Source of the DNA: Thermotoga maritima MSB8
Lineage (GTDB): Bacteria > Thermotogota > Thermotogae > Thermotogales > Thermotogaceae
Length of the DNA: 64,000 bases
Direction: 5' to 3'
Assembly: GCF_000008545.1 (NCBI RefSeq)
Contig: NC_000853.1
Location: 944,465 to 1,008,464, forward strand
Of this stretch, positions 7,792 to 64,000 are shown piece by piece. The position numbers were made by a program, and so were the translations under genes. Each line of letters starts with the position of its first letter. Within the stretch, counting starts at the first letter, position 1. The notes under the pieces are model-generated. The model searched no databases and had not been told where the DNA came from. It was given only the letters and a program-made list of their open reading frames with translations.

Positions 7792-7800
7792 GGTGAGATC

Positions 7801-10625: not shown

Positions 10626-10970
10626 ATGCTGAACATATATCTGAAGTCCAAAATTCACATGGCTACGATCACGAGAAAAGAAGTTTACTACGAAGGAAGC
10701 ATAGAAATAGACGAAGAGCTGATGGGAAAAGCGGGCATCAGCGAGGGAGAACTCGTACTGGTGGTGAACGTCAACAACGCCGAAAGATTCGTAACGTATG
10801 TCATAAAGGGAAAGAGGGGAAGCCGTGAGATAAACCTCTACGGTGCAGCCGCAAGACTCGGTGAAGAAGGTGACAGAGTGATCATCATGGCTTTCACCTT
10901 CAGTGACAAACCTGTGAAAGCGAAAACGATCGTTCTCAACGAGAAAAACGAAATCGTTCAGGAGAAATAA
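10626..10970 (+). CDS. panD: Aspartate 1-decarboxylase (pyruvoyl enzyme)
   Basis: 114 residues, cytosolic. Converts aspartate to beta-alanine for pantothenate and CoA. The self-cleavage site Gly24-Ser25 is in YYEGSIEID, matching the E. coli position, and Ser25 becomes the pyruvoyl cofactor; Lys9-equivalent (SKIH), RFVTYVI and NGAAA-like LYGAAARLG are also present. ATG at 10626-10628 follows GGGAGGGTG at 6 bases; an earlier in-frame start has no ribosome site. Followed 5 bases later by the pseudouridine synthase gene. Confidence 0.93.
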
Positions 10971-10975
10971 AAGTC

Positions 10976-13098: not shown

Positions 13099-14341
13099 TC
13101 TTTTTCTCATTTTTCTGGTGAGTTCTGTTGTTCTCATCGTGTTCTTTCTTCCAGAAAGGGTGGCTTATGACAGGAAAGGGATGGAATTTTCCTTTCTGTT
13201 CGACGACATGATCGATGGAAAGCGAGTGGTTCTCTTTGACCTTTCGAGCAGAAAAGATTTGCCACCGGAAGCCGAGATCGTGATTCTCAAAGGTGAACCT
13301 CTCTTCTGGGAGCCTCAAGAATTGGCAGAGAAATTGAAAGGAAAATGGCTTGGGATCGTTGAGTTCGATCCATCTTACGATTTCGCAAGAAAAGTCGCAC
13401 TTTTGAAGAAAGACGGCCTCTTCTTTCGTGTTCACACGGTGAAACCCGAAGAGATAGAAAAGCTGAATCTGGACGAAGAAGCGCTGTTTCACAGGTACAA
13501 AAGAGCCGTTCTTGAACGAAGTGTGGAGGTTCTCTGGATAAGGGACATAGACGAAAAAGAGCTCCTCGTTCAGAGGCTTTCCAGTTATTTCAAAGGAAAA
13601 GTTGTACCGTTTCCGGCTCCTCCAGAATCTGAACCGCCTTTCCCGAAGTGGATCTTCTTGATACCTCCCATTCTTATGATAACCTCTCTGAATCCTCTGC
13701 TTCTCTCTGTAGTCTTCGTTTTGCCTTTTTCAAGGGAATGGTTCGTGTCTCTCCTTTTTGTTTCCGGTACACTGGCGGCGTATTTTGTGCCGAAAAAGAA
13801 ATGGTTGAAAGTGTTGAGTTTTCTCCTTCTGTCGATCTCTCTGTCTCTGAGTCTCAGCGATCTGTACCACCTCAACGGTATCCTGGACTTCCGCGGAGTG
13901 AAACTTTCACTCGTACTTCTTCCCGGGCTTCTCTTTCTTTCAGGACTTTGGAAGAACAGAAGAAACTGGAAAAAGTACCTGCCGCTCCTTTTCCTTGCCA
14001 TTCCTGTGGGTTTCTATTATCTTATGCGTTCGGGAAATTCGGGATGGGTGCTGGAAGTTGAAAGAAAGTTCAGAGACTGGCTGGAGAGTGTTTTGATGGT
14101 TCGGCCCCGTTTCAAGGAAATTGTGTGCTACCCGTTTTTCTGGTTGGAAGGATTCAGAGAATACGATTTTCTCAGAGAGAGTTTTGGCAGCGTTGCGCTC
14201 GTTTCGATGTTCAACACGTTCTGTCATGTTAAAACGCCTCTGGTGGTTTCTATCTACAGAAGCGCTCTTGGCCTTGCTATAGGATATGCTGTGTTCTTAT
14301 TTCTGAAGGTATTTCTAAACCGCTTTTTAACTTCCAAATAA
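13070..14341 (+). CDS. Polytopic membrane protein (DUF5693-like)
   Basis: 423 residues. One N-terminal hydrophobic helix (about 10-27), an extra-cytoplasmic domain of roughly 160 residues, then about eight closely spaced membrane helices. The arrangement resembles DUF5693 proteins, often found near cell-surface polysaccharide genes in Firmicutes; the assignment is by shape and partial motif, not certain. GTG start at 13070 after GGTGGG, inside the preceding gene. Confidence 0.75.
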   Translation: MKKFTNLRNSLFLIFLVSSVVLIVFFLPERVAYDRKGMEFSFLFDDMIDGKRVVLFDLSSRKDLPPEAEIVILKGEPLFWEPQELAEKLKGKWLGIVEFDPSYDFARKVALLKKDGLFFRVHTVKPEEIEKLNLDEEALFHRYKRAVLERSVEVLWIRDIDEKELLVQRLSSYFKGKVVPFPAPPESEPPFPKWIFLIPPILMITSLNPLLLSVVFVLPFSREWFVSLLFVSGTLAAYFVPKKKWLKVLSFLLLSISLSLSLSDLYHLNGILDFRGVKLSLVLLPGLLFLSGLWKNRRNWKKYLPLLFLAIPVGFYYLMRSGNSGWVLEVERKFRDWLESVLMVRPRFKEIVCYPFFWLEGFREYDFLRESFGSVALVSMFNTFCHVKTPLVVSIYRSALGLAIGYAVFLFLKVFLNRFLTSK

Positions 14342-14342
14342 T

Positions 14343-14371
14343 TTGCAATTCACAAACGGCTGTTATATTCT
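14343..14371 (+). promoter_or_regulatory. Putative glnA promoter
   Basis: TTGCAA (14343-14348), a 17-base spacer and TATTCT (14366-14371) would start transcription near 14378, leaving a leader of about 145 bases before glnA. TATATT at 14364 is an alternative -10 with a short spacer. Motif evidence only. Confidence 0.4.
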
Positions 14372-14401
14372 ACGCATAAAGATGCAAAAAGAAAAAACCC
14401 C

Positions 14402-14419
14402 TCTGTCCCCGGGGACAGA
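14402..14419. promoter_or_regulatory. 18-bp perfect palindrome in the glnA leader
   Basis: TCTGTCCCCGGGGACAGA is a perfect palindrome. As RNA it can form a 7-bp stem with a CCGG tetraloop, followed by AAAAGGTTGTTGTTTTTGATTTTT. It may be an intrinsic terminator for the upstream operon, an attenuator of glnA, or a dimeric-repressor operator. The sequence alone does not decide. Confidence 0.5.
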
Positions 14420-14524
14420 AAAGGTTGTTGTTTTTGATTTTTACTGGCCCAAACAACTTCATTTCATGTCTTGGGATATTGATTATACCACAATGATTTT
14501 TTATGTTCAAGAGGAGGTGTTGTT

Positions 14525-15844
14525 ATGACAATTGAGACCATCAAAAGAATCATCGAAGAGGAGAATGTTCGATTCATCAGGCTGCAATTCACCGACATCA
14601 ACGGGACCTTGAAGAATTTAGAGATAACGCCGGATGTTTTTCTCGAATCCTGGGAGGACGGAATCATGTTCGACGGTTCATCCATCGAGGGTTTTGTGAG
14701 AATCGAAGAGTCTGATATGTACCTCAAGCCCGTCCTCGACACCTTCGCCGTTCTTCCGTGGACGGTCGATGGTGCAAAGAGTGCAAGAGTCATCTGTGAC
14801 GTTTACACTCCAGATGGTAAACCCTTTGAGGGAGATCCCCGTTACAGACTAAGAAGAATGATGGAAAAAGCAGAACAGCTGGGTTACACACCGTATGCGG
14901 GTCCCGAGATGGAATTTTTCATCCTTCCCATCAACGAAAAAGGAGAACCTGTTCCTGAGTTTCTTGACCATGGAGGATATTTCGATCTTCTGCCGCTCAG
15001 TAAAGTCGAGGAGATCAGAAGGGACATCGCGATAGCTCTCGAAAAGATGGGGATCACTGTTGAAGCAACGCACCACGAAGTTGCTCCCTCACAGCACGAG
15101 GTGGACTTCAGGTACGACACTTTCCTGAGAACCGCCGACAATGCCCAGACCGTGAAACTCGTCATCAAAACCATGGCAATCTTCCACGGATATCATGCAA
15201 CCTTCATGCCCAAACCCTTCTACGGTGTGAACGGATCGGGAATGCATGTCCACATGAGTCTTTTCAGGGGTGACAAAAATGCCTTCTACGATCCCGACGA
15301 TCCTCTTGGGCTTTCTAAAGAACTCAGATACTTCGTTGGTGGTATATTGAAGCACGCCAAAGCTCTCGCAGCCGTCACAAATCCCACGATAAACAGCTAC
15401 AAGAGACTCGTTCCCGGTTACGAAGCGCCCGTTTACATCTCCTGGTCAGTTGGAAACAGAAGCGCCCTCATCAGAATTCCAAAGGCAAGAGGAAAAGCGA
15501 CAAGATTGGAGTACAGATCACCCGATCCATCCTGTAACATCTATCTTGCCTTCGCGGCTATCCTCGCGGCAGGTCTGGACGGTATCATCAACAAAATCGA
15601 GCCTCCCGCGCCGGTTGAAGAAAACATTTACCACATGACGTCTGAGAGAAGGGAAGAACTCAACATAGAATCGCTTCCAGGATCACTGAAAGAGGCTGTC
15701 GAAGAACTCAAGAAAGACGATGTTATAATAGATGCACTGGGAGAACATATATTCGAAAAATTTGTGGAGGCTGCCGAAAAGGATTGGAAGGAATTCAGCA
15801 CCTACGTTACAAACTGGGAACTGCAGCGCTACTTGTATCTCTGA
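14525..15844 (+). CDS. glnA: Glutamine synthetase type I (alpha subgroup)
   Basis: 439 residues; makes glutamine from glutamate, ammonia and ATP; dodecamer in the cytosol. Signature elements: MFDGSSIEGF (48-57), the metal-binding PGPEMEFF region, NGSGMHVHMS, and RIPKARGKATRLEYRSPD. Arg59 in the EGFVRIEESDMY loop is the alpha-type residue linked to feedback inhibition, and no adenylylation tyrosine segment (NLYDLPPE) is present. Strong ribosome site AGGAGGTG. It overlaps the next open frame by about 61 bases at the 3' end. Confidence 0.97.
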   Translation: MTIETIKRIIEEENVRFIRLQFTDINGTLKNLEITPDVFLESWEDGIMFDGSSIEGFVRIEESDMYLKPVLDTFAVLPWTVDGAKSARVICDVYTPDGKPFEGDPRYRLRRMMEKAEQLGYTPYAGPEMEFFILPINEKGEPVPEFLDHGGYFDLLPLSKVEEIRRDIAIALEKMGITVEATHHEVAPSQHEVDFRYDTFLRTADNAQTVKLVIKTMAIFHGYHATFMPKPFYGVNGSGMHVHMSLFRGDKNAFYDPDDPLGLSKELRYFVGGILKHAKALAAVTNPTINSYKRLVPGYEAPVYISWSVGNRSALIRIPKARGKATRLEYRSPDPSCNIYLAFAAILAAGLDGIINKIEPPAPVEENIYHMTSERREELNIESLPGSLKEAVEELKKDDVIIDALGEHIFEKFVEAAEKDWKEFSTYVTNWELQRYLYL

Positions 15845-16812
15845 TCGTAAGTGTTTTCGCGGGAATCCTCGAAACAGAGAGGATAGATCTCAATGTGAAT
15901 CCTTTGAGAGGAACGATCAACGAGGGTGTCATCACCCTCGTTGATTCTTTGAAAAGAGAAGTCGTCGCGGTGAATGCGCTTTCAAAGAGAGTAACAGCGC
16001 GTTTCACAGGTTTTTCCTACCCTGTCTGGGGTATGTACCTCAAAGGAAACTTCTACGTTACTGATATGTTCGAGGGAAAATTCGTTGAACTCACTCCTTC
16101 GGGAAAGAGAAAGAGAGAAATTCTTCTTGGTGGGGATCCCACGGTCTTTCTTTACCACAACGGTGTTTTTTACATTTCGTTGTTTTCCCAGGGAACGCTC
16201 GTTGGAGTGGATCTACGTTCCTTCAAAGTTGTGGAAAGGTACAGAACAGGAGTTTCAAGCACCTATTTCGTTCCAACTTCGAAAGGAATCGCCTACCTTT
16301 GTTATTGGAGAGATGAAGACGATCCCGATGTGATTTACCTCAGGTACGGTAGCATGACCTCTGTTCGTCTGGGACTCTCTCGACCTCTGCGCTACGTGGA
16401 AGGTTCAAGCGGTGATTACGTCCTTGACTACCGAAACGGCTGGCTCGTGAAATTGGTGAACGGAAAGGTGGTGTGGAAGAAAAACCTTCCCGATTTTGCT
16501 TACGGTATTTCCTTCTATGGACCCGACATTGCAGTTGCCAGTCTTGTTTCTCCCGTTATCTCTGTGGTTGACAGAAACGGAAGCGTAAAACAAATCAACG
16601 TGCCGCACCCTGTGCTCTACCTCGAGGAGATAGAAAACTATCTGGTGGCACTTTCTGTGGAAGCAGAAGAGATATATCTGATAAAAAACGATAGAGTCGT
16701 TCAAACGGTTAAAACGGGAAAGTATCCTCTGAAGATTTTCAAGATCTCCGAAAAAGAATTCGCTGTTCTCTGCACCGATTCTGGAGAACTCATCTTCTAC
16801 ACAGTCTATTGA
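15784..16812 (+). CDS. Exported beta-propeller-like protein
   Basis: 342 residues. A hydrophobic N-terminal segment (YKLGTAALLVSLIVSVFA) looks like a signal peptide, then repeated beta blocks (PVWGMYLKGNFYVTDMFEGKFVELTPSGK, GDPTVFLYHNGVFYISLF, DYVLDYRNGWLVKLVNG) of a propeller. No catalytic motif. The start is uncertain: TTG at 15784 lies inside glnA with a poorly spaced AAAAGGA; a later in-frame CTG is possible. Convergent with the hydrolase gene. Confidence 0.72.
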   Translation: MEGIQHLRYKLGTAALLVSLIVSVFAGILETERIDLNVNPLRGTINEGVITLVDSLKREVVAVNALSKRVTARFTGFSYPVWGMYLKGNFYVTDMFEGKFVELTPSGKRKREILLGGDPTVFLYHNGVFYISLFSQGTLVGVDLRSFKVVERYRTGVSSTYFVPTSKGIAYLCYWRDEDDPDVIYLRYGSMTSVRLGLSRPLRYVEGSSGDYVLDYRNGWLVKLVNGKVVWKKNLPDFAYGISFYGPDIAVASLVSPVISVVDRNGSVKQINVPHPVLYLEEIENYLVALSVEAEEIYLIKNDRVVQTVKTGKYPLKIFKISEKEFAVLCTDSGELIFYTVY

Positions 16813-49311: not shown

Positions 49312-49424
49312 ACGATATGGTAAATTAACCAAATGATCACGTTTAAAGATTGATCTTCTGATTTTCTTTCGTTAAGTGGTATCATAGTATTAACATTTTA
49401 AAAACGTGAAAGAGGGGGATGGGT

Positions 49425-52400
49425 ATGAAGAGATTGATTTTCTTGGTTTTTCTTCTGATCAGCTTCAGTCTTTTTGGAGGATACGCCTATTTCTCTAGAT
49501 ATCCTGTTCTGCACCCAGATGAGGGGCTCTCCTTTGTGATCTCAGATCTGGAGAATATCACCCTGAACGTGTGGAAGATAAGTGAAGAAGACTTTTTGAA
49601 AGCAGTTTTTGATCCAGAAAGCTTTAACTTTTCACTGTTAGAGATAACACGTCCTATCTACAGTAAAAAGTTCTCCTCAGAAGAGTGGAAAGAATTCTCA
49701 TTTCCGCTCAAAGACAGGGGATTTTACTTTGCGACTCTGGTTTCCAACGAGGGGACGGTTTTCAGAAGGGTGATTGACAGGAGCCTGTTCATCGTCACCG
49801 ATCTGGAAGCGATCTACTTTTCCGACAGCGAAAAGCTGAGGCTCCACGTATTCGACTCAGACGGTGATTTTGTAGAAGGAGCGGAGGTCCTCCTCTTTGA
49901 AGATTCAAAACTGATCGACAGAGTTTTCACCGGCAAAGACGGGGTCGTTTCTATCACGAAACACTTCGACACGTTCTACATCAGGTACGGGGACTCTCGA
50001 TTTTTTGGAGGGGTGTACTTTTCAGGTGGAGGGCTTGAAAGAGAAAAGCTTTTCTTTGTCACAGACAGGCCGATCTACAAACCGTCCGACACGGTCCACT
50101 TCAGAGGTCAGATCTTCTCTTTTGAAGAGGGTCTCTACAAAGCCTTTGAGAAGACGAAAGTCACCGTTTCCATCTTCGACACAAAGAAAAACGAGGTTTA
50201 CAGATCGGAGTTCGAAACCGACGAGCTCGGTGGATTCAGCGGTTCCATGAAACTTCCAGACACAGCCTCGGTCGGACTCTACAAGGTGAATGTCGATCAC
50301 GGAGGAAGACGCTACTACGAATATTTTCTGGTGGAAGAATACAGGAAACCGGAGTACAAAGTCGAAATCGAAACGGATAAAGACGTGTACATATCTGGCG
50401 AAGTTGTGAACTACCTTGTCAGGGTGAAGTACTTCAACGGCCAGCCCGTCGCGAAGGCGCAGGTTGCCTACTACGTTCGGGCCTTTCCAGAGGAAGGAAG
50501 CGGCTATCTAGTTTACAGGGGAACGGACTTCACGGACGAAGAGGGAAACCTCAGGCTCGGTGTGAAAACAGAAGAAGGGTTTCAGGGCTCTTACCGGCTG
50601 GAGGTGATTGTGACGGATGAGAGCCAGCGTCAGATCGAGGAAACAAGGTCTGTGAAGGTGTACGCCGACAACGTTCTGATATCTCCTCTGGATCGGTACG
50701 TTTCCACTTCACCGGGCAAGCAGGTGAGGGTGAAGGTGAAAGTGACGGATCTTTCAGGAAATCCTTTAAATGGACTGCTCACCACCTCTTCTGAGGATTC
50801 AACGAGCACGGTGGCCGTGGAAAACGGTGAGGCGATCGTCACTTTCACCCCAAAAGAGCCAAAAAGTTACAGAATAGAACTCTCCTTTGGAAAAGCGAAT
50901 ACTCACTTCTACGTGTACGCTTACTGCGGTGCAGGAACAAGCAGCGAGTTCGTAATCAATCCGGCAACGAACACAGTGAAACCCGGGGATGAACTTTCGG
51001 TTCAGATCCTTGCACCTGGTAAGGTGATGGGAGTTCTGGGAATCGTCTCAAACAGGGTTTACGACACTATTCCCGTCTCCTTCACCGGATCTGTCAACCT
51101 GCGTGTCAGAATACCGAAAGATATCCCCGAGAAGAATCTATTCATCAGCTTCGTTGGACTCGACGATAATGGGCGTATCTACAAGCTGGAAAGGCTGAAC
51201 GTTCTGCTCGACACGAATTTCACCACCATGAAGATTCTGTTCGACAAAGATCAGTATGAACCTGGAGAAATGGCACAGATCACGATCGAATCGAATGTGG
51301 ACAGAGTCTGTCTTTTCCTCGTTGATGAAGCGATATACGCCATGGTTGGAGCAGAACCACCGGTGCTCGAAAACTTCCTCTATCCATACATGAACTATCC
51401 CCGGACAAGAGGAGGATTTCCGCATTACTGGAGGCTCTACGTTTCAAGGAATTCGTTCCGAAACAAACTCGCTTCCCTCCCGGAGGAGAAGACCTTTGCC
51501 GATTTCAAGCAGAACGCCCTTCCATCCAAGTTGAACGTCAGGGAGTACTTCCCCGACACGGCCCTCTGGATCCCATCACTGAAGCTTCACAACGGAACGG
51601 CAAGGGTGAGCTTCAAGGTACCAGACAGCATCACTTCTTTCAGGGCAACGGCCTACGGTTTCTCAAAGGATCGATTTTCCCAGACAGAAAGCGAAATGGT
51701 CGTTTCCAAAAAGTTCTATCTGATGCCACATCTTCCATCTTTTCTGAGGGAGAGTGATGTGATAAAAATATCCGCAACCGTTTTCAACAGGACTTCAAAG
51801 ACGCTTCCGGTTCAACTCACGGTGGAACTTCCCGAGAACATAGAACTCCTCGAGGGGAGTTCTTCAAGGCACTTTTTGATGGAGGCGAACTCCTCACACA
51901 CAGAGACCTGGACAGTGAAGGCTGTCTCCGCTTCTGAAGGAAGTTTCGTGAAGTTCGTTGCGGTCGGAGAAGATCTGAACGATGCGGTCTCCATGAGACT
52001 GCCCGTTGAAAGATTCGCCTTCGAAAGGGAATTCTACCGCATCATGCTCTTGGACGGGAAAGAAACGCTGGAAATTCCAGGGCAGTTCATCTCATCGAGG
52101 ATAAGGTTTCTGGACAGCATCGTTCCGCTTGTCGAGGATAGCCTGAAAAGGTTGATAGACTTCCCGTACGGTTGTGTCGAACAGACCATGAGCCGGTTCT
52201 TCCCGGCTGTGGTTGCAGCAAGCGCAGGAATAGAGGTGGAAAACCTGGAAGAGATCATCCAGAGGGGGCTGTTCAAACTCTACTCTTACCAGCACAACGA
52301 TGGTGGCTGGGGATGGTTCAGATTCGGCGAATCCGATGACTTCATGACCTGCTACGTGATGGAAGGGCTGTACTTTACCATGAAGGCAGGATACGATGTC

Positions 52401-54006
52401 GCAGAAAGCGTTCTGCAGAGAGGAATAGAGTATCTCAGAAAACATCCATCGGCCTACGGATCGTATGTTCTCGATCTGTACGGAGTGAATCACGAGCCGT
52501 TCAAGCCAGAAAGCGAAGCGGATCTGGTGTTTCTGAGTTTGAGTTCAAAAGAGGCTCTGAAACAGCTGATGAACTACGTCGTCCAGGACGAGCAGAAGGC
52601 CTATCTGAATGTATATTCTAATAATCCCCTCATCAGTGAGATCCAGCTCAACAGCGTCTTCCTCAGGGCTCTTGCGAAGTGGAAAGAATTTCCAGAACTG
52701 GAAAGAAAAGTGACAAATTACCTTCTCTTGAAAAAAGACAGCGCTTTCTGGACTTCCACAAAAGACACGTCCTTTGTTATTTTGGCGCTCCTTGAGGCGA
52801 TGCCGGAGTACGCTTCAACCACACTGAAAGTCATCAACTCCGAAAACACCTTCGAACTGAAGCCAGGTGAAGAAAGGTCCCTCGTTCCCGGTTCACTGAC
52901 CGTCTCTGGAAAAGGCATTGTGGAAGTGGAGGTAGTTTACATCGAAGTTCCGAAAGAGGCTGTGAGCGAAGGTTTGGAGATAAAAAGAGAATTCTACAAA
53001 AGGTACGAACTGCTCATAGAGGAGAATAAAATGATTGTGGATGCCTTCGTGCCGATCGGGAGAGGATACGTACCGCGCTCGATACACCCTGTCGAGAAAG
53101 AGCAAACTGAAGAGCTCTACATCCTGCCGTACAAGTACTGGAAGAAGACAATCGAATACAGAGGAGTTCCCCTCGAGATAAACGGTGCAGAAGTGAAAAT
53201 AAAGGGAGAGACTTACACGTTCTTCAGGATCGAAACGTTCAACGGCTTGATTCTTGTTTTTTTCAGAAACGAAGCGCTCATCTACGATACGGAAAAGAAC
53301 ACCATCACCAGGTATCTGGATGTAACGGACGCAGGTTTCATGAGAAGTGGTCCCGTCTTTCTCATGAAGGGATTCGTGCTGGTCGGTGATGAAAAGATAC
53401 CCGTTCCCGAAGACGTTACGGGACTGTCCTGCACGATGGACGAAATCTTGCTGAGGGGAGAAAACAAAACGTACTGGTACAGGAACGGAGAGTTCGTGGA
53501 TCTTCCGTTTGTTGCCAGAAGGGTATTCTTCTGGGATGGGAAGAAGCTGGTTGCGGAGAACATACGCTTCAGTGGATCTTCAAAAACTCTTCGGAACAGA
53601 GTTTTCGAGGTGGTCTTCGATGTTGGAGACGTGAAGATAGAATTGGGAGACATAATCAAAACGGTGGTGAGGGTTAAAGGAGATGGAAATTATCTCATAG
53701 TGGAGGATTTCATCCCGTCCTGTGCGCAGGTGCTCTCGAACTACAGAGAAAAAGGGATCGAGGAAAACAAGTTCTCGTACAGCTGGTACTCTTCATGGAA
53801 CGCATGGTACTCTGGAAGGGAGATTCGAACGGACAGGGTGGCGCTCTTTGCCCGATATCTTTACGGTAATAGCTTTGACTACGTCTGGAGGGCGACTGCA
53901 GAGGGGGTGTTTCATCTTCTTCCGGCACGGGTTTATCCGATGTATTCTCGTGGTCTCTATGCTCATACAGATCCAGATGTGCTTTTCATCGGGGCGGATT
54001 TTATCG

Positions 54007-54029
<23 letters not shown>
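49425..54029 (+). CDS. Bacterial alpha-2-macroglobulin with thioester motif
   Basis: About 1534 residues with a signal peptide (KRLIFLVFLLISFSLFGGYA) and no lipobox, so exported but not a lipoprotein. Macroglobulin MG2 block FFVTDRPIYKPSDTVHFRGQ, bait-like region, A2M block VREYFPDTALWIPSLKLHNG, then FPYGCVEQTMSRFFP with the CxEQ thioester near residue 917, and terpenoid-cyclase-like repeats (DGGWGWFRFGESDDFMTCYV). Traps proteases covalently. ATG at 49425 is 6 bases from GAGGGGGA; the ATG at 49419 abuts it. Overlaps the next gene by 23 bases. Confidence 0.94.
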
Positions 54030-55357
<1,328 letters not shown>

Positions 55358-55407: not shown

Positions 55408-58400
55408 ATGAAAACATTCCTTGAAAGTCTCAAATTCCCGGTCCAGGAAGTAAATAAAAAAAGTTCCGGCGAGAAAGGACCTGGAAGGCCTCCGTACTGG
55501 GAGATGGTGTTTTACTGGACGAGGAAACCTCTCGTAGGTGCAAGGTCTGTAATAGCGGGGGCACTGCTTCCCGAAAACGTGGATGAAAATCTATTCAAAG
55601 CGGCTGTAAGACTTTCTTCGCCCACACCCCACAGAGAGAACCCTCAAATTCCCGCGGAATTTGCGAAGTACTTTGAAGGGAAAAAGTTGCTCGATCCCTT
55701 CGCTGGGTTCGGTTCGATTCCCCTCGAAGGGCTGAGACTCGGCCTTGATGTCACGGCTGTTGAACTTCTACCAACAACCTACATTTTTCTCAAGGCCGTT
55801 CTCGAATATCCAAAGAAGTTCGGGAAATCCCTCGTGAAAGACGTTGAAAGGTGGGGTGAGTGGATAACCGAGCAACTCAAGAATGACCCTGAAATCAGGG
55901 AGCTTTACGACGATGACGTGGCCGTTTACATCGGAACGTGGGAAATCAGGTGCCCTCACTGTGGGCGGTGGACTCCTGCGATAGGAAATTTCTGGCTGGC
56001 AAGAGTTAAGGACGGCAAGGGCTACAAGAGGCTCGCCTACATGAAGCCTGAGAGGAAGGGCGATGAGATTGAAATAAGGGTGATTGACCTCAACGAAATC
56101 CTGGACGATATTTCTAAAGCGAATGTTGACGGCAATGAGATCATCTTCGAAGGAGAAAACTACGTGAAAACAGTAGAAGAAGCTGTAAGAGATGGAAAGC
56201 TGAAACAGAGTGATGTGAAGATAGATGGAAACACGGTTATCTTCGAAGTTCCTTCGGCGAATATCGAATCAAGACGGGATCAACTCACCTGTCTTATGTG
56301 TGGAAATGTCATAAAGTACGCGGATGAAAATGGAAATCACCACATGAAGCTGAAAAACGGGGATTTTTATGTGAAGTTCGCGCTGAGAAAGTACCACGAA
56401 GGTGATGAGCGCTTCGCAAGGCAGAGACTGCTCGTGAAGGTGAAAGTCAAGGATGGAGATCTGATCTTTGAACCAGCGACAAAGGAAGACAGCGAAAAAC
56501 TCTGGAAAGCGAAGGAGAAGGTCAGGGAGATGCTTGAGAAGGGAGATCTGGACGTGCCGAGTGAAGCAATACCTCTTTACGAGAACCGCCGTATTACTCC
56601 AATACTCAGTGCAGAAAAATGGTATCAGTTCTTCAACCCCCGTCAGCTTCTCACCCTCATAAAGATCGTGAGGCTGATAAGGGAAGTTGGCAGAAAGGTC
56701 GAGGAGGAAAAGATTGCCGAGGGCTGGAATAAAGAAAGGGCATTTGAGTATGCGGAGGCAGTGGCAACGTATTTGAGCACGGCGATGTTGAAGTATGCGT
56801 ACTACAATTCAATCGTTACCCGGTGGGATTCTACTTGGTGGAAAATTGGGGAAACAATGTCCACCCGTGGAATCGCAATGAATTGGAACTGGACAGAAAG
56901 TCCTTGGTTTAGTAGTTTTGGTGGGATGATCAAAACACTCCTTGCAATATTAAGGGGTGTTAAATACCTCACCTCCGCTCTCTCCTCCTCCCAGAGAACC
57001 CTTGCGGATTTCACAGAAAACTCCGTTAAAGTTCTCCAGGGCGACGCGACCTCGCTCAACCTTGGAGAGAAGTTCGACGTCATCGTAACTGATCCACCCT
57101 ATGCAGATGATGTCCCATACACAGAACTTTCTGACTTCTACTACGTCTGGCTCAAAAGGGCTCTGAGCGACGTTGAGAACGGAAAACTCATTCCAAGGTT
57201 CCACAAGGAAGCGTTTTTCAAAAGAATCGGCCCCAAATGGGTGGAAATCAAGACCCAGTGGCAGGAATTTGCGAAGAAAGAAGTTTCGACGAATCCGGGT
57301 CGTTTCATGGAAGACGAAAACAAAAAGGAGAAAGCCGTCCAACACTTCGAAAACCTCTTCAGTCAGGCCTTCGTGGCCATGAGGGAGCACCTCAAGGACG
57401 ATGGGGTTCTTGTCACCTACTACGCTCACACAGATCCGGGAAGCTGGATAAACCTCATTGAAGCCGGCTGGAGGCGAGCAAGACTTCAAATAACGAGGGC
57501 AATCCCTCTGACAACCGAATCGGAAACGAGCATCGTGAGCAGGGGTAAAATGAGTCTCGACACCTCGATCGTTGCTGTCTGGAGAAAACAGAAAGAGGAA
57601 AAAACCGTTCAAATATCGACTCTGAAGGAAGAGATCGAGAGAAAAGCAAAGTCTTCGGCTCGTGAATTCATAGAGTATGGTTATGAAGGACTCGATCTGC
57701 TGTACGGTGTGATGGCGGCTGCCCTCGAGGAAGTCACAAAGTACAGAGAAATTTCCTCCCTGAAAGGTCCTCTTACGACAGAAGAAATTTTGAACGAATA
57801 CGTATATCCCGCTACTATAAGAGGAATTGTGAACGCGATTGCGGAGATCGAAGGAACTGGAACACTCCATTCTGGCACTGCCATGTTCTACACCGCTTAC
57901 AAGATACTATTTGGAAACGCATCTTTGAGCGCGAACGATATCGTCCTCCTCAGGCTCGCAACATCAACAGATCCGAGTGAGTTGATCAGCAGTGGAGTTC
58001 TCAAAGAGAAGAGATCTTCAAGCAGTAAAGAATACACGCTCTACACACCGGATCTTCTCGGCAAGAAAGCTTTGGACACGAAGGAGTTCCAGAAGTTCCT
58101 TCATGAAAAGAAACTCGATCCGGTAGAGCCAAAACCAAAAAACAGTGTGGATGTGCTTCAGCTTCTCGAGTACTACTCACTGCTTGGACGCTCCAGAGTG
58201 AAAGAGGAGATAGAAAAACTCAGAAAAATGTGGGCTGGTGAGGTAGAAGAGGCCCTTTTTATCGCGAGGCTCGTGTCTGAGTACTACGCGGAGATCTACA
58301 TCAGGAAAATAGATCCTGTCAGGAGGATGAAAGAAGAGTTCGCTTCAGAGATAGACAGGGAGCTGGAAAAGGACGGATTCCTCGAAGTCGTTTTGATGAG

Positions 58401-58434
58401 AAGACTCCTGGGTTATGTAGGGGGTGCTGTGTGA
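55408..58434 (+). CDS. DUF1156-type adenine-specific DNA methyltransferase
   Basis: 1008 residues. N-terminal DUF1156 (GRPPYWEMVFYWTRKPLVGAR), AdoMet motif LLDPFAGFGSIPLEGLRLG at about 95-113, a zinc-ribbon-like insert (CPHCGRW near 184, CLMCGN near 295) and the catalytic motif VIVTDPPYADDVPYTELSDFYYVW near 558-580. Motif order FxGxG then DPPY is the gamma type with a very large insert. Resembles DrmMI of class 1 DISARM. First gene of a four-gene operon; ATG after AAAGGGGG. Confidence 0.92.
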   Translation: MKTFLESLKFPVQEVNKKSSGEKGPGRPPYWEMVFYWTRKPLVGARSVIAGALLPENVDENLFKAAVRLSSPTPHRENPQIPAEFAKYFEGKKLLDPFAGFGSIPLEGLRLGLDVTAVELLPTTYIFLKAVLEYPKKFGKSLVKDVERWGEWITEQLKNDPEIRELYDDDVAVYIGTWEIRCPHCGRWTPAIGNFWLARVKDGKGYKRLAYMKPERKGDEIEIRVIDLNEILDDISKANVDGNEIIFEGENYVKTVEEAVRDGKLKQSDVKIDGNTVIFEVPSANIESRRDQLTCLMCGNVIKYADENGNHHMKLKNGDFYVKFALRKYHEGDERFARQRLLVKVKVKDGDLIFEPATKEDSEKLWKAKEKVREMLEKGDLDVPSEAIPLYENRRITPILSAEKWYQFFNPRQLLTLIKIVRLIREVGRKVEEEKIAEGWNKERAFEYAEAVATYLSTAMLKYAYYNSIVTRWDSTWWKIGETMSTRGIAMNWNWTESPWFSSFGGMIKTLLAILRGVKYLTSALSSSQRTLADFTENSVKVLQGDATSLNLGEKFDVIVTDPPYADDVPYTELSDFYYVWLKRALSDVENGKLIPRFHKEAFFKRIGPKWVEIKTQWQEFAKKEVSTNPGRFMEDENKKEKAVQHFENLFSQAFVAMREHLKDDGVLVTYYAHTDPGSWINLIEAGWRRARLQITRAIPLTTESETSIVSRGKMSLDTSIVAVWRKQKEEKTVQISTLKEEIERKAKSSAREFIEYGYEGLDLLYGVMAAALEEVTKYREISSLKGPLTTEEILNEYVYPATIRGIVNAIAEIEGTGTLHSGTAMFYTAYKILFGNASLSANDIVLLRLATSTDPSELISSGVLKEKRSSSSKEYTLYTPDLLGKKALDTKEFQKFLHEKKLDPVEPKPKNSVDVLQLLEYYSLLGRSRVKEEIEKLRKMWAGEVEEALFIARLVSEYYAEIYIRKIDPVRRMKEEFASEIDRELEKDGFLEVVLMRRLLGYVGGAV

Positions 58435-61400
58435 TGAAATTCGGTCCTTACGAAGTTTGGGAGGACGTTCTGGATGAGAGTTTTGATTCTCAAGTTGCGC
58501 CGGAATTAGGGGATGTGTACACCGGTGAAGCGCCGGAGATATACAGAGATCCGAAGGAGTTTTTCAAAAGGACGTATTTCACCGATGCAACGGTGGAGAT
58601 ATTGAAAAGAATCCTTGATACATTCGAGGGAAAAGAGAGAAGAAACATATTTCTGATCTACTCTCTCTTCGGTGGTGGAAAGACGCATCTGCTCCTCACC
58701 CTGTATCACGCCTTCAAAACACCTGAAGCTCTGGAAGACCCAGAGGTCCTCGAGGGATACATTCCCGAAAAAAGAGAAACCATAAGAGAACTGGCAGAGA
58801 GGATAAAGCTCCTTGGAGAAAGCGTAAAGGTCGTTCCCGTGTATGGTAAGGGAAGGGTAGGCCAGCCAAGTATCCCTCTGAACGTGGACCCCTACAGTGT
58901 GAAGACGATCTGGGGGTACATAGCACATTCCCTCGGAAAGTACTCCATCGTCGAGAAAAACGACAAAAATCTCACGGTGCCGGACATAGAAACCCTGAGA
59001 GATCTGTTCAAAGGTGAAAGAGTACTGCTTCTAATCGATGAAATTGCGGATTACGTTGACAACCTTCACAACTCCGGAGCAGAAGAGGACCGCCGCTACG
59101 CGGGAAATGTGGACAACTTCATCGACAGACTTTCCTCTGCTCTTTCAAATTCCACGAGTTCTATGGTGATCACACTTCCCATGACAGAGGAAAGAGGCAA
59201 TCTGAGAACTCAGGAAGAATACAACCACAGTGTTGTAAGGGCTCTGTGGGATGCTGTCAGAAGAGTTGGTGGGGCTGATTCTTACACACCTGTGAGAACC
59301 GTTGGCATAAACGACGAGCTCGTCGAGGTCTTGAAAAAGAGGATATTCAAGCATGTGGATCCCGATATCCGAAGAAGAACCCTGGAAAGAATAAGATCTG
59401 AAACTAATGATGTGGAAATCTTCGGTCACGGAGGATTCGCTCAGGAAATACCCAGAACCTATCCGTTCCATCCCGAATACATACAGATTCTGAGAACGAT
59501 CATAGAAAAGACGGATCTTCAGAGAACGAGGGACATGATCAGAATAACCAGAATCGTTGTGAGAAACCTGATCGATCGCTACGAGAAAGAGGGATTTGCA
59601 CCCGCTATCATACTTCCTATTCACATCGATCTTACAAACGACAGAATAAGGGGAATGCTCTTTGGAGAAAAGTCGAAGTTCGCTGATTACGCTTCGATTA
59701 TAGATGCTGAACTGGTCAACGATGAGAAGTACAGAGCTTTCAGACATCCAGAGCTTGCAAGGATGATTCTCACTTACATCTTTTTGAGAACATATCCATT
59801 CGATGCACCGACTCCTCTAAATGATTTCCCAACGCTGACCACTATATCGAGAGCGATCTACGACCCCGAAACTTTCTCCAAAAAACAGTGGATTCCCGCT
59901 GATATAAAAGACACCGTCGAAGAGATAGAATCCCATCCACACTTCGTCTTTCTGAACAGAAAAGACGGTGTTTTCTGGTTCTGGAGAGTTGCCAACGTGA
60001 CAAAGATGGTTGACAGCAAGACTGAAGAGCTCATCCAAAGTAACTATGGTGAGATCTGGAACCAGCTTGTCCGATATGTGGACCAGTTAGTGAGGGAGAA
60101 GAAGAGCATCGCAACAACAAGAGGTAAGGGATCCACTGTAGAAGAACACGTGAGGTTCTTCGAACAGGTGATCGTTAGCAAAGAACCACAGGAACTTATG
60201 GACAATGAAATGTACAAGCTCTTCGTACTGGTGAGTGAGGATGTCGATGAGAAATTACTGAAAGGCATTGTGTTCCAGATCGGTTCTGGAAGCAGAACTT
60301 ACAAGAACACTGTGGTTGTCTGTTATCCCATTCCGGGAACGATGAAACATCTGATAATGACGACGGCAAGAGATATGGCATGCCAGAGGGTGATGGATAC
60401 GGTAAAAGAGATGTATGGAAAGTATGGAGAAGACGTGGTGAAAATACAGCTGAACCAGCTCAGAGATATAAGAAACAGGGCCCTTGAAGACCTTGAGAAT
60501 CAAATTGTGGGCTCTTTCAGAAAAGTAGCTTACCCGGTTAAAGATGGTATAGACACCGCTGACGCTCCTGCCAGCTCGAAATCTGTTGTCGAAAACGTGT
60601 ATTCTGCTCTGAAAGGCAGAGGAAAGATCGCAGAGGAATTCGATTTCATCGAATTCGCTAACTGGTTGAAAGAAAACATCGGCCTCAATATTCTGAAACC
60701 GGAAGGATACTGCGTGTCAGAACTGAGAAAAATCATCTGTTCGAATCCCTCTGCACCCATGGTGGACTTTGAGAATCTCAAGAAGTCGATAAAGGAGGCT
60801 GTTCGAAAGCTCAAGATCGGCCTTGAAAGAAAAGGAAAGATACTATTCAAAAGGGTCTATTCGGAGATTCCCGACTTTGCACAAGAAAGCGGTGTGGAGA
60901 TCTCCAAAGTTGAGCCCGATGACATAATTCTGCCAGCTAATGAAGCCCTCAGAAGACAAGTCTGCGAGCTTTTGAAACAGGAAAAGGATGAGATTAGGGA
61001 TGGAAAAAGATATCGCGTGTGGTACGAGATTTATCTTCCGAGTTCGGAATTTTCAGAGCTTTTGAAGAACCTGGTTACTGTGGAGAACGAGGAATGTCAG
61101 ATAGGGGACGAAGAAGCCGTTATGTACGGTTTAATCCTGGAAAAAAAGGAAGAAGTGGAGATTAAAAAAGGAGAATTCGACCTTGAGGTAGCCCGACGAA
61201 GCGTTGAAGGAAAACCGGGCGAGAAAGTAGAGATCCCCGTTAGGATAACCGCTTTTGGTGATGCCGAGATCGAACTCTCATCCGAATACGGGGAACTTTC
61301 CTATCAGAACGTTTTTCTCAGAGAGGGTGAATCTCTTGAAATTCTATGGAATATGACCATACCGTCTGAGAAGAAAGTTGTGAAGATAGAGGCAAAAAGT

Positions 61401-61805
61401 GAAGAGAAAATGATTCCCAAGGAGATCGTTCTTGTACCGAAAGTTGAATCGAGTGTTCTTGAGACAAATACCTTGGACGAAACTCACAAAGGAATGTTTC
61501 TTGTTTCCGTGAAATCCATCAGAGATCTCGATACACTGAAATCTCTACCAGAGGACTTCGAAGGAGTGGTGAGTGGTCGTCTCGAAACGGAAAAGCCTGA
61601 GTGGAAAGTTCAGTTCAGTGAAACCGACAGAAAAACTTTTGAATACATTGCCGGTGAGCTCGAAGATTTTCTGGGAACAAAGGCTTTGCTCGATGTGAAC
61701 TTCCGTTTGTCGGAACCACAGATGATCAATGACCTTATCTTTGAGAAACTGAAACCTCTGAATGGAAAAGTATCATTCATTCTAAAGAAAGGAGATCAGA
61801 AATGA
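58431..61805 (+). CDS. DUF499 AAA-type ATPase
   Basis: 1124 residues. Walker A YSLFGGGKTHLLLTLYHA near residue 80 and Walker B RVLLLIDEIADYVDNLH near 200; a long helical region follows and a beta-rich domain (PGEKVEIPVRITAFGDAEIELSS) near 930. DUF499 ATPases co-occur with DUF1156 methylases in defence islands and are thought to be a motor of a restriction-like system. Overlaps the methylase by 4 bases (ATGA) and the next gene by 4. Confidence 0.9.
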   Translation: MMKFGPYEVWEDVLDESFDSQVAPELGDVYTGEAPEIYRDPKEFFKRTYFTDATVEILKRILDTFEGKERRNIFLIYSLFGGGKTHLLLTLYHAFKTPEALEDPEVLEGYIPEKRETIRELAERIKLLGESVKVVPVYGKGRVGQPSIPLNVDPYSVKTIWGYIAHSLGKYSIVEKNDKNLTVPDIETLRDLFKGERVLLLIDEIADYVDNLHNSGAEEDRRYAGNVDNFIDRLSSALSNSTSSMVITLPMTEERGNLRTQEEYNHSVVRALWDAVRRVGGADSYTPVRTVGINDELVEVLKKRIFKHVDPDIRRRTLERIRSETNDVEIFGHGGFAQEIPRTYPFHPEYIQILRTIIEKTDLQRTRDMIRITRIVVRNLIDRYEKEGFAPAIILPIHIDLTNDRIRGMLFGEKSKFADYASIIDAELVNDEKYRAFRHPELARMILTYIFLRTYPFDAPTPLNDFPTLTTISRAIYDPETFSKKQWIPADIKDTVEEIESHPHFVFLNRKDGVFWFWRVANVTKMVDSKTEELIQSNYGEIWNQLVRYVDQLVREKKSIATTRGKGSTVEEHVRFFEQVIVSKEPQELMDNEMYKLFVLVSEDVDEKLLKGIVFQIGSGSRTYKNTVVVCYPIPGTMKHLIMTTARDMACQRVMDTVKEMYGKYGEDVVKIQLNQLRDIRNRALEDLENQIVGSFRKVAYPVKDGIDTADAPASSKSVVENVYSALKGRGKIAEEFDFIEFANWLKENIGLNILKPEGYCVSELRKIICSNPSAPMVDFENLKKSIKEAVRKLKIGLERKGKILFKRVYSEIPDFAQESGVEISKVEPDDIILPANEALRRQVCELLKQEKDEIRDGKRYRVWYEIYLPSSEFSELLKNLVTVENEECQIGDEEAVMYGLILEKKEEVEIKKGEFDLEVARRSVEGKPGEKVEIPVRITAFGDAEIELSSEYGELSYQNVFLREGESLEILWNMTIPSEKKVVKIEAKSEEKMIPKEIVLVPKVESSVLETNTLDETHKGMFLVSVKSIRDLDTLKSLPEDFEGVVSGRLETEKPEWKVQFSETDRKTFEYIAGELEDFLGTKALLDVNFRLSEPQMINDLIFEKLKPLNGKVSFILKKGDQK

Positions 61806-62311
61806 ACAGTGCGATCGAATACCGCATATCTTTGAAGTACGTCAAAAAGTCCACTCTTCCTGTGAAGAGAACTCAGAAGCTGGCGGAGTTCGTTCCGGTT
61901 TTTATCGCTGGAAAAAACGGTAAAGAAGAGCAGATACCCGGGAAAGCAGAGGCACGTGCGAAGGTGTTTTTGCCAGAGTTTTTGAACTTTGCGAAAAAAG
62001 TAGGAGCGATACACGATGAACAGATCAGCCTTTTTCAGATGGAAAATGATCGATCCAGAAAGCTTGTACTGAAGGTCTCGGATGACTACGCGTACTTGAG
62101 ATTGATGATCTACGGTGTTTTGATGTCTGTTTTGAAGAATCCTGTGGAGTGGGGGTATCTCGAGGATCTCGTTCTTTCAATGGAACCTTTAACTCTACGG
62201 TTCTGGGGCTCGAAGATAAAATACACTTTCTGGAAAGCCAAGAATCGGAGAGTGCTGAATTATCTTGCAAGGCGTATCCTGGAGGTAGAAAGGCTTGGAA
62301 AGGTTACCTGA
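61802..62311 (+). CDS. Unknown 169-residue protein of the DUF1156-DUF499 operon
   Basis: Basic, soluble, no membrane segment. Contains FVPVFIAGKNGKEEQIPG, LVLKVSDDYAYLRLMIYGVL and FWGSKIKYTFWKAKNRRVLN. I recognise no domain; DUF3780, which accompanies such operons elsewhere, is a possibility not supported by any motif I can name. ATGA overlap at its start and a 17-base overlap with the helicase show it belongs to the operon. Confidence 0.8.
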   Translation: MNSAIEYRISLKYVKKSTLPVKRTQKLAEFVPVFIAGKNGKEEQIPGKAEARAKVFLPEFLNFAKKVGAIHDEQISLFQMENDRSRKLVLKVSDDYAYLRLMIYGVLMSVLKNPVEWGYLEDLVLSMEPLTLRFWGSKIKYTFWKAKNRRVLNYLARRILEVERLGKVT

Positions 62312-64000
62312 GGTCATACTCAGAAAAGTTACACTGAGCAATCCCGCTCTCTTTTATTCCTCGCTGACTTCTCCCTCGAACAGAAGGAGAATAGAAGCTT
62401 TCAAGCATCAGTTTCAGACGCTCTGTCATGCCATGCTTTCAAGGCCTGTGAGAATTCTAATAGCCGATGAGATAGGCCTCGGAAAAACCATCCAGGCTCT
62501 TGCAATAGCGAGATATTTAGAGCTTCAAGGTGAAGCAAAAAAGATTCTGATCCTCGTTCCCAAGATCCTCAGAGAGCAGTGGAAACAGGAGATAAGAAGA
62601 TTGGGAGGAAAACCGGTTGTCATAACGAATGGAAGCGAAGTGGAAAGAAAACTTCTCAGAAAGGCTACTTTTAATAATGCTGCCGAGTATTTTGTGGTGT
62701 CAATCGATCTGGCAAAGAGTCAAAACCATTCAGAAAAGTTCTCGGCGATAGATTGGGATCTTCTAATCGTTGACGAGGTTCATAATGTAACTTACAACAC
62801 ACAGAGATACAACTTTTTGAAGAGTCTGATCGAAAAATCAAAAGAGGACCTCAACATCGTATTTCTCTCCGCAACACCGCACAGAGGTAATCCGAAAGAC
62901 TATATAGAAAGGCTCAGACTCCTTGATCCAACACTGACAGCCGATTGGAACGCTCTGGACAGCGAGAAGTTCTACAGAAGAACTCACGGGGTTCTGGTTT
63001 TTCGTCGAACAAAAAAGGTTGTCAACGATCTGGAGAAGAGAGAGATCTTCAAAAAGTGCGATTTCAACGCTGTGATAGTTGATATTACCGAAGAAGAAAA
63101 ACGTTTCTTTGAGGAACTGGATGAAGTGCTCTTTGAAATGGTCAAGGATGTTCATATGAACTCTCCTGTTGCTCTTCTTGCTGTACTTTTGAGAAAAAGA
63201 GCGGCTTCGAGTTACGAATCCGCTTTGAAAACTATAAACAACATCATCAAAAATCAGTATTCCGGGGCTTCAGGTGAAGACGTGCTGGAAGATCAGATCA
63301 AGCAGATATTCGGCCTCGGGTACGATGAGATGGAACTGGAAGAAAATTCAGAAATAGACGATCTGATCAGTAGCATAATAAACAGCGTGGCCAAAAGATA
63401 CCCTCTTGATAAAGGACAGATTAACGCGTTAGAAAAGATCCTGAAGATTGGAAAGGCCATCGGAAAAAACGACAGCAAGTTGAAAACTCTTGCCGAAGTT
63501 CTCGCATATCACCTGAAGAAAAACGAAAAGGTGATCGTATTTACAGAATTCAAGGACACACTGGAATACCTTAGGAACAATCTTCCAACACTCCTCGAAC
63601 AAGAAGGTATTCACCTTTCTGAGGAAAAGGATATATCTGTACTTCATGGCGGAATGAAAAGCGAAGAAATAGAAAAACAGGTGGAGAAATTTGCAAACGA
63701 TGGAAAACTACTGATCTCAACCGATGTGGCATCCGAGGGATTGAACCTGCAGGTGGCAAACATCCTGATCAATTACGAAATCCCTTGGAGTCCGATAAAG
63801 CTCGAACAGAGGGTGGGAAGAATCTGGAGACTGAATCAGACAAAAGAAACGATCGCTTACACCCTTCTTCTCAACCACGAGGCAGATCTTCAGATACTGG
63901 AAAGCCTTTATCAGAAGATCCTGAACATAACTGATGCTGTTGGAACTGGGCCGAACGTTGGTAAGCCAGTTTTTGGAACGAGAACGCTCAGTGGAAATTT
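62295..64000 (+). CDS. SNF2-type helicase (3' end beyond window)
   Basis: 568 codons visible. Motif I ILIADEIGLGKTIQALAIA, motif II LLIVDEVHNV (DEVH), motif III FLSATPHRGN, a long insert, then FTEFKDTLEYL, LLISTDVASEGLNLQVA and motif VI EQRVGRIWRLNQTKE. Resembles DrmD-like SNF2 helicases of class 1 DISARM. Start is TTG at 62295-62297, 8 bases from GGAGGT, inside the preceding gene. A nuclease subunit, if any, would lie past the window. Confidence 0.92.
   Translation, partial: MERLPEVILRKVTLSNPALFYSSLTSPSNRRRIEAFKHQFQTLCHAMLSRPVRILIADEIGLGKTIQALAIARYLELQGEAKKILILVPKILREQWKQEIRRLGGKPVVITNGSEVERKLLRKATFNNAAEYFVVSIDLAKSQNHSEKFSAIDWDLLIVDEVHNVTYNTQRYNFLKSLIEKSKEDLNIVFLSATPHRGNPKDYIERLRLLDPTLTADWNALDSEKFYRRTHGVLVFRRTKKVVNDLEKREIFKKCDFNAVIVDITEEEKRFFEELDEVLFEMVKDVHMNSPVALLAVLLRKRAASSYESALKTINNIIKNQYSGASGEDVLEDQIKQIFGLGYDEMELEENSEIDDLISSIINSVAKRYPLDKGQINALEKILKIGKAIGKNDSKLKTLAEVLAYHLKKNEKVIVFTEFKDTLEYLRNNLPTLLEQEGIHLSEEKDISVLHGGMKSEEIEKQVEKFANDGKLLISTDVASEGLNLQVANILINYEIPWSPIKLEQRVGRIWRLNQTKETIAYTLLLNHEADLQILESLYQKILNITDAVGTGPNVGKPVFGTRTLSGN

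Follow-up and report, generated by a model that had tools for sequence, protein, structure and literature searches.

We herein describe a four-gene operon of Thermotoga maritima MSB8 that encodes a DUF1156 methylase, a DUF499 AAA+ ATPase, a small third protein (termed X) and an SNF2-family helicase-nuclease. It starts at position 55408 of the analysed window, a stretch of 64,000 nucleotides corresponding to positions 944465-1008464 of the genome (a single contig of 1,860,725 bases); the fourth gene exceeds the window by 1,336 bases and ends at L002:12801, i.e., window coordinate 65336. The operon is a DUF499-centred system related to bacteriophage exclusion (BREX), or 'Hma'-like, which fits none of the three described subtypes cleanly and is not a defence island system associated with restriction-modification (DISARM). 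We consider it to be a restriction-modification (RM)-like antiviral system that forms its own branch, labelled TX, and assign a probability of roughly 0.7 to this reading, including the mode of action outlined below.

By analogy with the protein families involved and with the published model, the DUF1156 methylase would modify a specific site across the host genome, probably to N6-methyladenine, and the DUF499 ATPase of the AAA+ type, which carries a beta-sandwich and an RNA recognition motif (RRM)-like tail, would assemble on DNA and scan it. X may serve as a small reader or adaptor which replaces the N-terminal stretch missing from the helicase (TUDOR elsewhere) and helps to distinguish DNA with and without the mark. 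Along invading DNA that lacks the mark, the SNF2 helicase would translocate and its C-terminal NOV_C/DUF3883 nuclease would cut; the formation of a complex by these proteins and its antiviral effect are likewise predicted.

Domain composition of the operon

BREX-related (BR) systems centred on DUF499 were defined in PMC12839542. As described there, Type 1 comprises a methylase, DUF499 and a TUDOR-SNF2-restriction endonuclease (REase) protein, Type 2 additionally contains DUF3780 and its helicase lacks TUDOR and carries an N-terminal HKD nuclease, and Type 3 possesses PglZ and iSTAND. The same source reports a C-terminal PD-(D/E)XK domain on the helicase in 79% of Type-1 taxa and an N-terminal HKD/phospholipase D (PLD) nuclease in 83% of Type-2 taxa, calls the tripartite core RM-like and refers to a study in which the helicase component was confirmed to act against phages. 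The COG1743-DUF499-SNF2-nuclease combination, often accompanied by EVE proteins, was also predicted to be a restriction system in PMC7641849. The T. maritima operon contains the BR features of a DUF499 ATPase with an RRM-like C-terminus, a DUF1156 methylase and an SNF2 helicase. The open reading frame (ORF) listing shows four plus-strand ORFs in series with overlaps of 4, 4 and 17 bases, exactly as in a preliminary description made from the window sequence, and the DPPY, Walker and DEVH motifs named in that description were read at the residues given below. Its proposal of a modification/defence-type operon with a DUF499/DUF1156 pairing agrees with the Pfam and PADLOC matches.

The methylase (55408..58434, plus strand; 1008 aa) consists of DUF1156, an S-adenosylmethionine motif, a long insert, DPPY and a C-terminal part. 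Pfam detects the DUF1156 helical domain at residues 10-56 (55435..55575; E 1.2e-8) and UPF0020 (2.7e-7), PADLOC returns MTase_II (1556 bits) and HmaB (159 bits), and the NCBIfam anti-phage DUF1156 equivalog scores 134 bits against a cut-off of 1000. The protein carries a DPFAGFGS motif at residues 96-103 and the catalytic DPPY motif at residues 562-565 (57091..57102), and D562, P563, P564 and Y565 are invariant in a seven-row alignment. The DPPY motif and PMC12839542 suggest that the methylated base is probably N6-adenine.

The DUF499 ATPase (58431..61805, plus strand; 1124 aa, GTG start) was recognised by Pfam (DUF499, E 0 over residues 113-1120), phylogenetic trees and a structural model. 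Its Walker A motif, FGGGKTH, occupies residues 80-86 (58668..58688), with G81, G82, G83, K84 and H86 invariant in an 11-row alignment, and an LLLIDE motif is also present; PADLOC HmaC scores 120 bits, and the NCBIfam DUF499 equivalog 82 bits against a cut-off of 1200. In the predicted structure (predicted local distance difference test, pLDDT, 82.3), a run of strands recognised by eye forms a beta-sandwich (fibronectin type III (FnIII)/Ig-like) module at residues about 901-1001 (61131..61433), followed by an RRM/ferredoxin-like C-terminal module at residues about 1023-1119 (61497..61787). Foldseek searches of the Protein Data Bank (PDB) with this model placed largely beta-sandwich proteins in the top rows (best E 9.2e-4, the sole row below 0.001) and matched AAA+ ATPases such as p97/Cdc48 more weakly; a PDB sequence search with a DUF499 profile gave nothing (best E 0.56). 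The same order, FnIII before RRM, is given for Type-2 BR DUF499 proteins in PMC12839542, where it occurs in 53% of taxa.

The helicase gene (62295..64000 and on to window coordinate 65336, plus strand) starts with TTG and encodes 1013 aa, 568 of them in the window. Pfam matches to Helicase_C (1.2e-26) and SNF2 (8.1e-20) lie within the first 568 residues; motif I, DEIGLGKT, is found at residues 58-65 (62466..62489) and motif II, DEVH, at residues 160-163 (62772..62783), the latter being invariant in a pairwise comparison with the archaeal locus L149. The protein ends in a NOV_C domain (PF13020; E 3.5e-18, residues 869-962), which we take to be the DUF3883 domain, and its D...E-x-K motif reads HYDIKVSEPEGEKYIEVKG. 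DUF3883 is listed as a novel REase domain in PMC3710099. The motif is kept in all five TX helicases with a full C-terminus: the D...E-(V/I)-K pattern occurs in 4/5 of them, the fifth (L170) having E-A-K together with a NOV_C match, and in 20/20 Type-1, 0/12 Type-2 and 0/3 TH helicases (for the TH group, see below). NOV_C was also detected in L149, L161 and L162. Since the helicase ends in this predicted nuclease domain of the PD-(D/E)XK type, the nuclease of the system sits inside the helicase, just past the window. The preliminary description had looked for it in a separate PLD gene downstream or in the third protein, which, as far as can be told, is no nuclease factor.

At its other end the helicase is short. 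The open frame has only 1015 codons, hence the protein cannot start further upstream and the short N-terminus is no annotation error. Motif I (G.GKT) lies at residues 61-86 in 5/5 TX helicases, compared with a median of 133 in the 19 of 20 Type-1 helicases in which it was located (range 53-197, which overlaps TX) and with 262-383 in 12/12 Type-2 helicases. In the T. maritima protein it lies at residue 61, which, judged from length only, leaves little space for an N-terminal TUDOR; no PLD match up to E 1 was found for an N-terminal PLD/HKD domain, and the protein starts at the SNF2 core.

A separate branch among DUF499-centred systems

All three large proteins of the operon form their own supported TX clade. 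In DUF499 trees (quick method, no bootstrap) the four TX rows are one clade with a Shimodaira-Hasegawa-like approximate likelihood ratio test (SH-aLRT) value of 100, apart from Type 1, from Type 2 with DUF3780, from Type 2 with DUF7680, and from a group of presumed Type-3 and haloarchaeal rows. In the helicase tree the five TX rows form a clade at 100. In the methylase tree, made with a careful method, one eight-row clade (100/100) unites the methylases of three TX operons with three more from archaea and with those of the Sulfolobus viruses STSV1 and STSV2; within it, the three operon and two of the archaeal methylases form a subclade (99/98) with the viruses outside. The first DUF499 tree contained 47 rows, limited to ATPases of at least 820 aa (1 of the 30 chosen Type-1 loci gave none); for the second, 14 of the 47 rows were removed and 13 added, including three presumed Type-3 loci, namely L224 and L228, with PglZ Pfam scores of 19.9 and 16.8 bits (cut-off 25), and L227, chosen by its similar layout. 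The methylase and helicase trees were built after removal of 11 and 10 Type-1/Type-2 rows, respectively, and the partial helicase L163 was not used. Types were assigned to rows from neighbours and domains, most Type-1 rows being labelled without a Pfam scan. A further group, TH (L219-L223 and L230), forms its own clade near the presumed Type-3 rows. Its DUF499 relative is ~1080 aa long and in most cases accompanied by a methylase of ~890 aa and a short SNF2 helicase, which measures 582-645 aa when complete and showed no NOV_C motif in the three proteins checked.

The operon shares with Type 1 (Hma) a DUF1156 methylase, a DUF499 ATPase and an SNF2 helicase with C-terminal NOV_C. Could it then be an ordinary Type-1 system with one extra small gene, of the same function, with TX reflecting mere sequence divergence? 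The C-terminal position of NOV_C, the placement of the helicase (93) and of the methylase (84/79) on the Type-1 side of their trees, and the HmaA, HmaB and HmaC matches in PADLOC (177 bits for HmaA, and those given above) speak for this. However, each of the three trees separates TX as a supported clade, motif I of its helicases lies closer to the N-terminus (with the overlap noted above), its DUF499 model has a beta-sandwich before the RRM and its DUF499 protein has no HEPN domain. Moreover, the gene order is methylase-DUF499-X-helicase, and the additional conserved gene X is found in 8/8 TX genomes and not at any other DUF499 locus examined (best E 0.87 in a hidden Markov model (HMM) search). 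We therefore consider this classification unlikely.

Type 2 (DUF3780 with an HKD helicase) and its DUF7680 form, observed here in cyanobacteria and haloarchaea, resemble the operon in having a small-protein gene after DUF499 and an FnIII-like module before the RRM; their helicase lacks the N-terminal TUDOR, for which the operon helicase, judged from length, has little space. They differ in the N-terminal PLD/HKD domain of their helicase, in place of which the operon helicase has a C-terminal nuclease domain, and X is related to DUF7680 at the profile level only, with no direct DUF3780 match. Type 3 shares DUF499, the methylase and an SNF2 helicase, but the operon helicase possesses a nuclease domain, and the presumed Type-3 rows fall outside TX; a Pfam scan of seven distinct local proteins gave no PglZ match. 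Because of the architecture of its helicase and ATPase, TX combines sensing features like those of Type 2 with a nuclease arrangement like that of Type 1. The DUF499-centred BREX-related kind is already known; the literature searched contained neither the X branch nor its DUF7680 link nor the neighbouring viral methylases. The main text of PMC12839542 contains no mention of Thermotoga or DUF7680, and its supplements may file Thermotoga proteins.

The third protein

X (61802..62311, plus strand; 169 aa) was left unassigned in the preliminary description and has no family in Pfam, PADLOC, NCBIfam or PHROGs. It lies between DUF499 and the helicase in all eight TX genomes, which represent six distinct sequences; in 6/6 loci measured, its 5' end is located -4 to +7 bases from the end of DUF499, and a start codon of the helicase frame precedes the end of X. 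Outside TX it was not among the ORFs of more than 130 aa listed for 20 further archaeal loci. The single-sequence search found X only in its own genus (3/103 genomes of the phylum), and on no viral contig or plasmid; a five-sequence profile matched no viral contig, and PHROGs and PDB sequence searches yielded nothing usable. An AlphaFold2 model from a five-row alignment (pLDDT 77.2, predicted template modelling score 0.80) has strands at residues 4-13, 25-36, 41-44, 51-56 and 88-92 and helices at 57-66, 72-80, 95-108, 114-125, 129-146 and 149-165. DUF3780 is described as four strands and five helices in PMC12839542, and that paper reports no definitive homologues of it.

Profile comparison supports X as a distant relative of DUF7680. 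The hhalign score of X (6 rows) against DUF7680 (7 rows) is 25.6, compared with a mean of 11.8 and a maximum of 19.1 in 300 column shuffles of X, none of which was as good (0/300); the likeness covers the C-terminal half of X. The score is 26.3 without the T. maritima sequence, 22.5 without row L188 and 11.1 when reversed. DUF7680 and DUF3780 give 19.7, a score as high in 5/300 shuffles, with a similar pattern around G-x-(R/E)-L, E-E and K-A-x-R, which points weakly to kinship of these two families. Earlier comparisons were not significant (P 0.15 for X and DUF7680; P 0.41 for DUF7680 and DUF3780, with three DUF3780 rows), and the former value improved to 0.013 and then 0.0029 with added rows. 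Since these early P values shifted with the number of rows, we base the X-DUF7680 claim on the 300-shuffle hhalign comparison. The DUF7680 gene lies 3' of DUF499 in the cyanobacterial and haloarchaeal loci (Pfam, five proteins), with one gene between them at L019, and the helicases of four DUF7680 loci have a PLDc match in 4/4 cases, above the curated cut-off in two. DUF3780 lies between DUF499 and the methylase in 8 of the 11 viral-contig loci found.

The position of X directly 5' of the helicase, together with the helicase start codon upstream of the end of X and the shortness of the helicase at exactly that end, could be explained if X were a detached N-terminal (TUDOR) piece of the helicase rather than an independent DUF7680-related subunit. 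Such a split gene is, in our view, quite improbable, given that X also lies directly 3' of DUF499, the place of DUF7680/DUF3780 in other systems, that its model, with five strands and six helices, is more than a TUDOR barrel, and that its profile matches DUF7680. X looks like a small non-catalytic subunit.

Distribution and conserved gene order

Of the 103 genomes of the window's phylum, the same three possess X and DUF499; they account for 3 of the 7 genomes of a single genus, and a patchy spread of this kind counts for a defence role. X is 100% identical in the three genomes, and the two other copies of the operon plus the adjacent GmrSD gene (see below) show 98.9% and 96.5% nucleotide identity, so that the three are near-copies. 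Among 14 named control genomes, T. maritima was the only one with a DUF499 match. A two-sequence ATPase profile matched 4/392 genomes at E <= 1e-60 in the phylum of a Candidatus Methanoliparum genome (G103), presumably Halobacteriota in the GTDB (euryarchaeal), and a four-sequence ATPase profile matched 1/227 genomes in the phylum of a Lokiarchaeota genome (G105). The four-sequence TX profile found 0/350 genomes in the phylum of a Thermoflexales genome (G108), a search with no positive control, whose empty result carries no weight. No viral contig matched the pair of TX ATPase sequences. A broad DUF499 alignment searched against genome contigs gave, among the matches listed, only distant relatives with 21-30% identity, and absence there means little.

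All five archaeal TX genomes possess an X homologue of 149-178 aa between DUF499 and the helicase. In the genome G583 of the Lokiarchaeota phylum, all four genes follow the Thermotoga order (L170: methylase 6709-9765, DUF499 9777-13175, X 13182-13643, helicase 13630-16530). The series DUF499, third gene, helicase is found again in archaeal loci whose proteins are 22-39% identical to those of the window, which is more than chance would give. The methylase was found at E <= 1e-60 in 6/392 genomes, two of which (G250 and G433) also have the TX ATPase; in G250 both genes are on one contig, separated by about 9 kb that include a GmrSD gene and further genes. The preliminary description held that scattered homologues would speak against a unit; on this test, DUF499, X and the helicase behave as a unit. 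The methylase occurs also apart in some archaea (on short contigs) and in Sulfolobus viruses.

Relatives of the methylase in Sulfolobus viruses

A tblastn search with the methylase retrieved five records of a phage collection, all of them Sulfolobus viruses (45.0-46.5% identity over 30-73% of the query), and two hits in a search of viral contigs match the STSV1 and STSV2 genomes in length. In alignments of about 730-740 residues, the STSV1 protein is 51% and the STSV2 protein 50% identical to the operon methylase, and both are of the DUF1156 type; they differ in that they end after the catalytic core, the cellular protein being ~270 residues longer (its C-terminal quarter), and in branching beside the operon-methylase subclade. 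No annotated ATPase or helicase was present in the 3 kb flanks of the two viral genes. The natural reading is that these enzymes would serve self-methylation against a TX-type system, which would make them candidate anti-restriction genes, and their position in the wider TX methylase clade would fit such self-protection. Viral methylases of the orphan type may also be put to other uses, and in the tree the operon methylases have the viral rows beside them, not among them.

Two kinds of genes were observed near TX-type methylases. A protein of 502-503 aa is encoded directly 3' of the methylase on three archaeal contigs (L150:3623-5131, L151:3619-5130 and L162:353-1864; on L162 the preceding methylase is, by eye, a C-terminal fragment), and its L150 copy contains a ribonuclease HII domain (Pfam 9.5e-13). 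EVE-domain genes are located at L170:5579-5998 and L153:4815-5255, in agreement with the association described in PMC7641849.

Neighbouring genes

Directly downstream of the operon, in convergent orientation, lies a type IV restriction-like GmrSD_N (DUF262) gene (584 aa, E 3.1e-35; L002:12826-14580, window 65361-67115, minus strand); in G250, the methylase and helicase genes have a GmrSD gene (L149:7529-9253) between them. About 6 kb downstream of the T. maritima GmrSD gene, a small minus-strand gene with a HEPN-like look by eye and no PADLOC match (L003:1979-2688) adjoins a 104-aa nucleotidyltransferase-like gene (PADLOC PDC-S09). Upstream, the plus strand of the window (49419-55357) encodes a protein of 1536 aa, presumably a bacterial alpha-2-macroglobulin from its appearance, and a DUF1175 protein (E 4.1e-110). 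In Planktothrix pseudagardhii, a 194-aa gene with no Pfam match (L167:10559-11143) lies between a DUF1156 methylase and DUF499, with a NOV_C helicase upstream. The archaeal genome G250 has three separate DUF499 matches, on contigs C94, C183 and C219.

Probable defence function and alternatives

The alternatives regarding classification and X discussed above are not exclusive of our interpretation, and our confidences do not sum to one. An operon with no defence function could be a stable module of chromosome maintenance or an epigenetic module, composed of an Orc-like ATPase and a methylase: its G+C content equals that of the genome, and DUF499 was called homologous to CDC6/ORC1 in PMC7641849. 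We regard this as very doubtful, since the operon was not found in 100/103 genomes of the phylum and 4/7 genomes of the genus, the helicase has a nuclease domain with kept catalytic residues, and GmrSD genes lie beside or within the locus in two members of the clade.

An adenine methylase and an SNF2 helicase are also found in DISARM, which further contains DrmB and DrmC together with DrmA; the operon resembles class 1 DISARM in the first two components, DrmD is the best match of its helicase in both NCBIfam and PADLOC, and the helicase itself scores 166 bits with a DrmA model owing to its SNF2 core. That the operon is a DISARM variant is nevertheless scarcely credible, since the NCBIfam match to DrmD (first 568 of 1013 residues) reaches 275 bits, far below the curated cut-off of 610, none of nine flanking proteins scanned, which represent part of the flanking ORFs, matched a Drm model in PADLOC, and a DUF499 ATPase is, to our knowledge, no part of DISARM. 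The preliminary description was right to call the operon related to DISARM and distinct from it, but its closest relatives are the DUF499-centred BREX-related (Hma) systems.

Several results weigh against the reading of the operon as an antiviral system of this kind. A foreign composition was looked for by G+C and nothing special was seen (0.447 vs. 0.448 +/- 0.012 in equal-sized pieces of the window); since this equals the window background, the composition does not mark the operon as foreign. Promoters or terminators were not above shuffled background (15 found vs. 14.3 expected, and 16 vs. 12.7). HmaB is, by the prediction in PMC8565338, which named Hma, an m5C and not an N6-adenine methylase. 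Four of the six archaeal methylase genomes lack a TX ATPase match, and two of the four TX-ATPase genomes (G121 and G312) lack a methylase match, for which fragmentation of the contigs (3-19 kb) or free-standing methylases are possible explanations. Among the 50 Foldseek rows listed for the ATPase model there is no Orc/Cdc6 chain. The direct hhalign comparison of X with DUF3780 scored 11.0, a value reached by 208/300 shuffles (P 0.59 in an earlier comparison), and neither X nor the other local proteins have a Pfam DUF3780 match; as the direct comparison gives no signal, kinship of X with DUF3780 is suggested only via the DUF7680 chain. Structural searches with X remained below the tools' meaningful level (Foldseek, best E 0.1 in the PDB and 0.023 in a viral library; VIA-align, with a top Z of 5.7 over 77 residues followed mainly by PX domains at Z about 3-4), hence we claim no fold for X. 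Finally, the nearest neighbour of TX varies between trees (the Type-3/TH side for DUF499, at a weak 81; near Type 1 for the methylase, 84/79; with Type 1 for the helicase, 93), and many tree rows have a skewed composition. Thus, we claim only the separateness of TX and no branching order.

A further-reaching possibility, which we put forward tentatively and at somewhat less than even odds, is that TX may represent a fourth DUF499-centred BR subtype, present in a thermophilic bacterium and in archaea, with a Type-2-like sensing half, in which DUF499 with its beta-sandwich and RRM would be joined by a small subunit of a single X/DUF7680/DUF3780 superfamily replacing the TUDOR reader of the helicase, and a Type-1-like cutting half, namely the helicase with its C-terminal PD-(D/E)XK domain. 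Large spindle-shaped Sulfolobus viruses would then have captured the catalytic core of a TX-type methylase for self-modifying anti-restriction; the position of the viral methylases outside the five-row operon subclade weighs against this part.

The profile chain from X through DUF7680 to DUF3780 suggests one superfamily of small subunits that accompanies helicases without an N-terminal reader end, which provides a testable idea of how self and non-self DNA may be discriminated. The link to STSV1 and STSV2 makes the viral methylase a candidate counter-defence gene, and the proteins of Thermotoga, coming from a hyperthermophile, favour structural work on a poorly understood BREX-like complex.

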